The notes under the pieces: model-generated | Database searches by the model: none | Told to the model about the DNA's origin: nothing | Seen by the model: only the letters and a program-made list of their open reading frames with translations | From: a bacterium | Lineage (GTDB): Bacteria > Patescibacteriota > Microgenomatia > UBA1406 > GWC2-37-13 | Assembly: GCA_030647255.1 (NCBI GenBank) | Contig: JAUSJK010000073.1 | Span: 1 to 47,142, forward strand | Length of the DNA stretch: 47,142 bases | Direction: 5' to 3' | Made by a program: the position numbers and the translations under genes | In this document: in pieces, positions 789 through 21,522 of the stretch | How positions within the stretch are numbered: the first letter of the stretch is position 1 | How the letters are laid out: every line of letters begins with the position of its first letter

Positions 789-790
789 AG

Positions 791-864
791 TGCCCTCGAC
801 CCGAATTGAACGGATAGTCTTGCCCTTAGGACGGGCCTGCTTTATCCATTTAAGCTACGAGGGC
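791..864 (-). tRNA. tRNA-Arg (anticodon CCU)
   Basis: On the minus strand GCCCUCG pairs with CGAGGGC to form the acceptor stem. The D arm, a GUCCUAA anticodon loop and a T arm with loop UUCAAUU follow. Position 33 is U and the anticodon is CCU, reading AGG. The outermost anticodon-stem pair is a G.A mismatch. The discriminator is A and CCA is not encoded. The gene lies in the 112-base gap between ndk and the sortase gene, opposite to both. Confidence 0.9.
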
Positions 865-1652: not shown

Positions 1653-1882
1653 AAGGAACAGGTGTCAGAGTGGAAGGGATCCCGACAGCGCGGACGTCAT
1701 GAAGAAGTGATAAGGCTCGATACCGAATTTGCTTAGCTCCGTGAGTGTGCTCGTTCCTGCGCACCCCTCAAGTCGCCGCAAATTGGTATCTTCGCCTCTT
1801 TACAGAAGACACCATTCATGTAAAGGATGATGGAAGGAGCACTGGCGGGAAGGAGAACTCTGACAGAATCTGGAAAAAAACT
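1653..1882 (+). ncRNA. Structured RNA-like element, copy 1
   Basis: This 230-base non-coding stretch is repeated at 21282-21522, with only about three substitutions over the central 86 bases. It folds into a closing helix (1663-1671 with 1857-1865, nine pairs), a second helix (CCCGACAGCGC 1681-1691 with GCACTGGCGGG 1839-1849, nine of eleven canonical pairs), a long internal stem (1719-1732 with 1778-1790, 13 pairs and one bulged G) and a shorter hairpin near 1813-1832. Unpaired purine-rich pieces (GAAGAAG, GGAAGGAG, TAAAGG) favour the plus strand. I see none of the hallmark motifs of RNase P, tmRNA, SRP or 6S RNA. It lies between the convergent sortase and PEGA genes. The strand is tentative and the family is unknown to me. 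Confidence 0.7.
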
Positions 1883-21281: not shown

Positions 21282-21522
21282 AAGGAACAGGTGGCGAGAA
21301 GAAAGGGTTCCCGACAGCGCGGACGTCCAAGAAGAAGAGATAAGGCTTGATACCGAATTTGCTTAGCTCCGTGAGCGTGCTCGTTCCTGCGCACCTCTCA
21401 AGTCGCCGCAAATTGGTATCTTCGCCTTGAAGAGTATTCTTTAAGAAGTAGATTTATCCATAAAGGATCAATGGAAGGAGCACTGGCGGGAATGAATTCG
21501 AGGCAGAATCTGGAAACAAACT
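21282..21522 (+). ncRNA. Structured RNA-like element, copy 2
   Basis: The second copy of the element at 1653-1882 is 241 bases long. The 13-pair bulged stem is present (21349-21362 with 21408-21420), as are AAGGC/GCCTT beneath it and CCCGACAGCGC/GCACTGGCGGG (21310-21320 with 21480-21490). The closing helix (21292-21300 with 21497-21505) differs in sequence from copy 1 yet keeps pairing by three compensatory changes, with a G.G and tandem G.A/A.G at the others. Between the transaldolase start and the GH18-like stop, it could also be a minus-strand leader, although purine-rich unpaired pieces favour the plus strand. Confidence 0.7.

Follow-up and report, generated by a model that had tools for sequence, protein, structure and literature searches.

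The described system that most resembles the repeat reported here is that of the Rickettsia palindromic elements RPE-1 to RPE-8 (Ogata et al. 2000, 2002; reviewed in PMC10969869, PMC3767692). These are palindromes of about 100-150 bp, present in many copies per small genome and in many cases lying in frame within conserved genes; in R. japonica their sites include tRNA ribosyltransferase-isomerase, i.e. the QueA function, and palindromes of different types occupy the same orthologous sites (PMC10969869, PMC3767692). A second system consists of the GTAG/CGTC-tagged REP sequences (PMC3733652), with their RAYT transposases and REPtrons: dispersed palindromes, some of them in genes, which are thought to be moved as single-stranded DNA hairpins. 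Protein-coding mobile palindromes have hitherto been seen as an oddity of Rickettsia and Wolbachia, and several families of them are now found in a very distant phylum.

The window (the whole stretch of 47,142 nucleotides analysed here) contains two copies of a structured repeat. We consider it likely that the first of them, at 1653..1875, is a long form of a mobile palindromic DNA element that is non-autonomous and dispersed in the genomes of Roizmanbacteria and their relatives. Like the RPEs, the element is a palindromic repeat (85-170 bp, up to 26 copies) inserted in frame into unrelated open reading frames, QueA being a target in both, and other palindrome types occupy the same orthologous in-gene sites. 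Unlike the RPEs, its hosts belong to the phylum Patescibacteria: among 84,980 species genomes, the P3 core pattern was found in Patescibacteria only (Ca. Roizmanbacteria, Ca. Levybacteria and one contig labelled Saccharibacteria). In this core-pattern scan, no sequence homology with the RPE families of Rickettsia and Wolbachia was found. The element also has copy-specific complementary arms, a strand bias and reciprocal nesting, for which a partial literature search returned no report in RPEs; nor did it return any paper on palindromic elements in bacteria of the candidate phyla radiation. In its behaviour the element most resembles the RPEs, a resemblance that falls short of showing it to be a member of that group. 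Palindromes within the genes of reduced Patescibacteria genomes suggest a recurrent route by which small genomes acquire in-frame protein segments.

Organisation of the window copies

Copy A (223 bp, 1653..1875, + strand) and copy B (234 bp, 21282..21515, + strand) are 83% identical over the element (BLAST E 1.7e-61 in a genome-wide search), and the likeness ceases in the flanks, right at the element boundaries. The ends of copy A, AAGGAACAGGTG...CAGAATCTGGAA, are common to about 20 copies of the genome. Both window copies are intergenic: A lies between a sortase ORF ending at 1638 and a convergent PEGA ORF ending at 1902, and B between the start of a transaldolase ORF (21229) and the end of a GH18 ORF (21524). 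A tRNA-Arg (cct) gene at 790-864 (-) overlaps, in antisense, the beginning of the listed sortase ORF (790-1638); given this overlap, the true start of the sortase gene is probably further downstream.

The fold of copy A is closed by a basal stem, P1, of only 3 bp (1659..1661 with 1870..1872, +). It is followed by two covarying helices: P2, formed by GTCAGAGT (1664..1671, +) and ACTCTGAC (1857..1864, +), and P3, formed by CCCGACAGCGC (1681..1691, +) and GCACTGGCGGG (1839..1849, +), which has a conserved C.A mismatch and is replaced by CCCATAAGCGC/GCACTTATGGG in L014. In copy B, the 5' arm of P2 is the GGCGAGAA variant with a tandem G.A motif (21293..21300, +) facing TTCGAGGC (21497..21504, +), and P3 is formed by 21310..21320 and 21480..21490 (both +). 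The apical loop of each copy holds a second palindromic module, module 2 (AAGGC..GATACC..CTCCGTGAG..CTCAAGTCG..GGTATC..GCC in copy A), located at 1712..1798 (+) in copy A and at 21342..21428 (+) in copy B. The mobile core proper, of about 90 bp, consists of the helices P2 and P3, two internal loops rich in purines and an apical hairpin that varies between copies; it would fold as a DNA hairpin with conserved mismatches.

A sequence-only reading of the window had described a two-copy repeat whose central 86 or so bases differ at about three positions, with nested helices and no signature of RNase P, tmRNA, SRP or 6S RNA. The repeat is as described, and the central bases differ at 3 positions; this conserved 'core' turned out to be module 2, sitting inside the apical loop of the first module. 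The helices were also found: CCCGACAGCGC pairs with GCACTGGCGGG apart from A.G and C.A mismatches, and GATACCGAATTTGC with GCAAATTGGTATC in a bulged stem. A search of the window against Rfam returned only tRNAs at the gathering threshold and chance matches at a permissive one, with no match of the element to a structured RNA family above the gathering score. Folded singly as RNA, copies A and B were only moderately more stable than their shuffles (z -1.93 and -0.84). A covariance model and a search of related genomes yielded many homologues whose helices covary: over 50 copies, the covariation score was 0.353, compared with 0.152 for shuffled and at most 0.089 for slid alignments, and 15 of the 21 pairs had changed on both sides. 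The alignment was fitted to the model and thus favours the structure; nevertheless, the controls remained far lower. The proposal of a new RNA family stood in so far as the element is structured, conserved in structure, covarying and absent from Rfam; a new family of RNA genes or a discrete regulatory RNA was not supported. With 1-26 copies per genome, the element is a dispersed repeat; it lies in frame within unrelated genes in both orientations, shows no G-U excess, is oriented along the GC skew, and has an outer stem that is specific to the copy even where the cores are identical. Covariation alone is no proof of an RNA family, since DNA palindromes made by template switching or by insertion mimic it.

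Distribution and insertions in protein genes

With copy A as the query, BLAST returned 31 pieces in its own genome (1.22 Mb, 90 contigs), corresponding to about 20 elements, mostly of about 105 bp. A covariance model built on 11 of these copies matched 16-17 elements there, besides three long forms: both window copies and C40:4786, all with module 2 (GATACC...GGTATC) in the apical loop. A typical copy of this genome measures 100-106 bp and has the ends AGGAACAGGTG...CAGAATCTGGA, P2 as GTCAGAGT/ACTCTGAC or GGCGAGAA/TTCGAGGC (tandem G.A), P3 as CCCGACAGCGC/GCACTGGCGGG, and then a variable apical hairpin of 12 to about 150 nt. In L018/L033 (G000:C1:10604-10757) and L036, the 5' internal loop that separates P2 from P3 contains an additional GC-rich hairpin, making this loop a second position that accepts hairpins.

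The same model detected the element in 36 of 96 related genomes, with 1-26 copies each and a patchy distribution among genera; of 380 genomes from the whole phylum, 10 contained it. The genomes sampled are species-level representatives in fragmented assemblies. Across genomes the element measures 85-170 bp, or up to 230 bp counting the long forms. The Saccharibacteria-labelled match (L137, PFOA01000028.1) is a single core-pattern match at a contig end, and reflects either horizontal spread or mis-binning. In G001:C4 (L126 1949-2055 and 8099-8205), two copies separated by 6 kb are identical, as are their near flanks, which suggests that a gene was duplicated in tandem with the element included. 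Some elements are common to species of one genus and show compensatory changes (L112/L132, L106/L120), so that some copies could be under selection in place. A role as a cis-regulator was considered and rejected: the neighbouring genes have no common member, and copies occur in all contexts.

Among 108 distinct copies, 35 lie in ORFs whose frame stays open throughout the element, 23 in sense and 12 in antisense orientation, and at most 4 copies are candidates for broken genes. The assignment required an ORF with at least 50 open codons on either side, and is thus an open-frame test, supported by Pfam for 20 proteins. The host genes include queA, tgt, tsaD, tatD, asnB and transketolase. According to Pfam, the insert is spanned or flanked by domains in QueA, TGT (in three genomes), TsaD, TatD, Dus, DegT, transketolase and a HAD-domain metal ATPase, and inserts were also placed inside or between domains in asparagine synthase and glycosyltransferases. 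The transketolase insert sits at the N/Pyr linker in two different genomes. For QueA, solved homologues are about 65 residues shorter than the ORF of the genome studied, and the alignment breaks at the insert. The tgt gene of G051 harbours two copies with near-identical cores, 240 bp apart and both in frame (L127 1968-2071 and 2310-2413), which add about 70 residues to this tRNA-modifying enzyme.

Several of these sites are shared with other palindromes. In one glycosyltransferase, the DADE-PRKN spacing is mostly 33-40 aa in homologues without a large insert, and 61, 70 and 63 aa in G027, G000 and G011, respectively, where the same loop contains the element in frame; G019 retains a 3'-end remnant in this loop, and in G041 the same codons are taken up by a palindrome of the GTAG type. 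In tgt, the siblings G051 and G043 share an element copy; at this codon position, the sibling G054 carries a palindrome unrelated to the element. The asnB gene carries the present element in G043 and a AGAGACGTGATTAATCACGTCTCT palindrome in G006. GTAG-type REP palindromes were also seen in frame within conserved genes at L133 ~1480-1520 (G006 asnB) and in L274 (the G041 GT2 gene). In-gene palindromes of several unrelated families are thus common in the clade. Comparison within genus g7 showed neither a transposition event nor a clean pre-insertion site in a close strain; where orthologous sites were compared, they were occupied by other palindromes or had diverged too far.

Module 2 represents a second palindromic family. 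It occurs alone at G000:C46:11328 (L004 1501-1580) and C72:1240 (L300), with compensatory changes in the outer stem, and its outer stems are copy-specific (AAGGC/GCCTT, AAATC/GATTT, AAAGAAGC/GCTTCTTT). The C72 copy appears to lie in frame within a radical-SAM methylthiotransferase-like gene. In G027 the nesting is the other way round from that in the window, module 2 having the element at its apex, and a third module bears the element within another copy. Thus, the two families nest in each other's apical loops.

Complementary arms and strand orientation

The outer stem is specific to each copy. P1 is 8-17 bp long in most copies of other genomes and 3 bp in the window copies; outside the genome of the window it reached at least 10 bp in 51% of copies, compared with 1.5% when flanks were swapped between genomes. 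Within that genome, P1 is mostly weak (3 bp), which indicates that a long P1 is not required for persistence. For pairs of G027 copies with cores at least 93% identical and different arms, pairing was 94% with the copy's own arm and 50% when the arms were crossed. In L081, L083 and L091 the cores are 100% identical, and the arms are entirely different yet self-complementary. Identical cores with different matched arms are not a product of compensatory evolution; the arms were therefore gained at insertion or immediately after it.

As to how the arms were gained, insertion into pre-existing palindromes was considered. Outside the elements, G027 has 23 perfect palindromes with an arm of at least 7 in 181 kb, few for so many insertions, and this scarcity leans towards rewriting of the flank over a choice of palindromic sites, which is still a possible source of the arms. 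Inverted duplication of a whole flank was likewise considered and set aside: the GT2 gene shows a net gain of about 26-28 aa, and since this gain is no longer than the core, the arms were probably not simply added, although the argument is weak because loop lengths vary.

Exceptions to Watson-Crick pairing in P1 and P2 comprise 41 G-T and 37 A-C pairs, i.e. there is no G-T excess. RNA helices normally tolerate G-U well, and such a comparison of G-T with A-C helps to tell DNA palindromes from RNA families. Under DNA folding parameters, the top strand was the more stable one in 104 of 108 copies. The better-folding strand coincided with the C-rich strand in 78 of 114 copies (20-kb contexts; p 1e-4), in 58 of 65 copies within regions of |GC skew| of at least 0.05 (p 4e-11), and in 49 of 54 cases when each region was given one vote (p 4e-10). 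Neighbouring copies had the same orientation in 22 of 26 cases. The orientation of the element is therefore tied to GC skew and, through it, probably to the replication strand; GC skew serves here as a proxy for replication direction, and whether the C-rich strand is leading or lagging would follow from the usual bacterial rule. Copy-specific arms combined with a replication-strand bias offer new handles on how palindromes of the REP and RPE types move.

Mode of movement and alternative explanations

A dispersed repeat found in genes in both orientations, linked to GC skew and closed by a copy-specific stem has the properties of a mobile DNA hairpin. From these results, a hypothesis regarding its movement may be put forward: while single-stranded at the replication fork, the element would form a hairpin that a hypothetical host-encoded or IS-type enzyme would recognise and move. 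The arms would become complementary at insertion, either through targeting of hairpin or palindromic sites or through recopying of one flank from the other by template switching. Copies within genes would survive only with an open frame and an insert of about 30-37 residues in a tolerant loop. The best explanation is that the element behaves as selfish DNA tolerated by its host, like the Rickettsia palindromic elements. A bolder version, which we put forward only tentatively and hold to be doubtful, is a new class of hairpin transposon that enters via single-stranded DNA at the fork and rewrites one flank as the complement of the other, with several unrelated Patescibacteria families sharing the mechanism, nesting and diversifying essential proteins in frame.

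The strong covariation, long helices and conserved internal loops, together with intergenic copies that are orthologous between species and differ there by compensatory changes, are what would be expected of a trans- or cis-acting structured RNA family with several paralogous copies and a structure under RNA selection. We nevertheless regard such a family as improbable: an RNA gene is hard to reconcile with copies that lie in frame in both orientations, show no excess of G-T and follow replication in their orientation. Specifically, 12 of the 35 in-gene copies are antisense, no gene context is fixed, G-U does not exceed A-C, orientation goes with GC skew, and identical cores carry different complementary arms. 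The antisense third of the in-gene copies also speaks against a short self-splicing or translational-bypass element (intron- or byp-like) excised from the RNA or passed over by the ribosome, to which conserved coding positions, the strong hairpin and a basal stem closing the insert might otherwise point; neither process needs the frame that stays open through 35 copies (with at most 4 candidate exceptions), and no group I/II or other Rfam match was obtained, which leaves this explanation very improbable.

Nearer to a mobile DNA hairpin is the possibility that the copies are unusually large REP sequences or BIMEs moved by RAYT (Y1, IS200/IS605-type) transposases. The element is palindromic, occurs both between and within genes and has a strand bias resembling that of single-stranded DNA; Y1 genes of RAYT size (216-240 aa) are common in the clade, and at some of the same sites there are true REPs of the GTAG type. 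However, the flanks are copy-specific and conserve no GTAG/CGTC tag, the size is 85-230 bp rather than 20-40 bp, and the element has two internal loops and conserved mismatches that REPs lack. Moreover, Y1 transposases were not more common in genomes with the element (29/36) than in the others (42/60; Fisher p 0.34, RAYT subgroups pooled), and G047 has 10 element copies with no Y1 match. We consider this origin unlikely, although less so than an RNA family.

It is possible, if not our preferred reading, that template switching during replication at a strong hairpin alone makes and maintains the arms, which would then play no part in insertion; a mobile core would be consistent with this. Such switching is an established way for hairpin stems to arise and persist (PMC8794818, PMC7202029), and the arms are perfect and free of G-U bias. 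On the other hand, they are already perfect where the cores are 100% identical, and so formed at or very soon after insertion, and the conserved mismatches and loops of P3 have not been 'corrected'. The coding palindromes of Nematomorpha mitochondria (PMC6649704), for which conversion or template switching was proposed, are similar in being inverted repeats with perfect arms within protein genes; unlike in the present element, the arms there are native coding sequence with no shared mobile core.

Returning to the mobile palindromic element, we compared its ends with those of other small mobile DNAs. As in MITEs, it is small, non-autonomous, has inverted-repeat ends and sometimes gives in-frame fusions, but its ends are asymmetric rather than perfect terminal inverted repeats, and no parent transposon was found. 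There was no target-site duplication, the best 4-nt direct repeat being present in 12 of 108 copies compared with 3-5 with swapped flanks, and the integron attC R''/R' core sites (RYYYAAC, GTTRRRY) were absent from the element ends examined. In the search for an autonomous parent, the only unpaired 5' end belonged to a remnant at C77:4843, which is not a transposon end. This 23-nt in-frame remnant of the element's 5' end (L299 ~2344-2366, G000:C77:4843-4865) may be an excision or deletion scar, and occupies the equivalent EIKEL...AYGIPR loop of a second glycosyltransferase.
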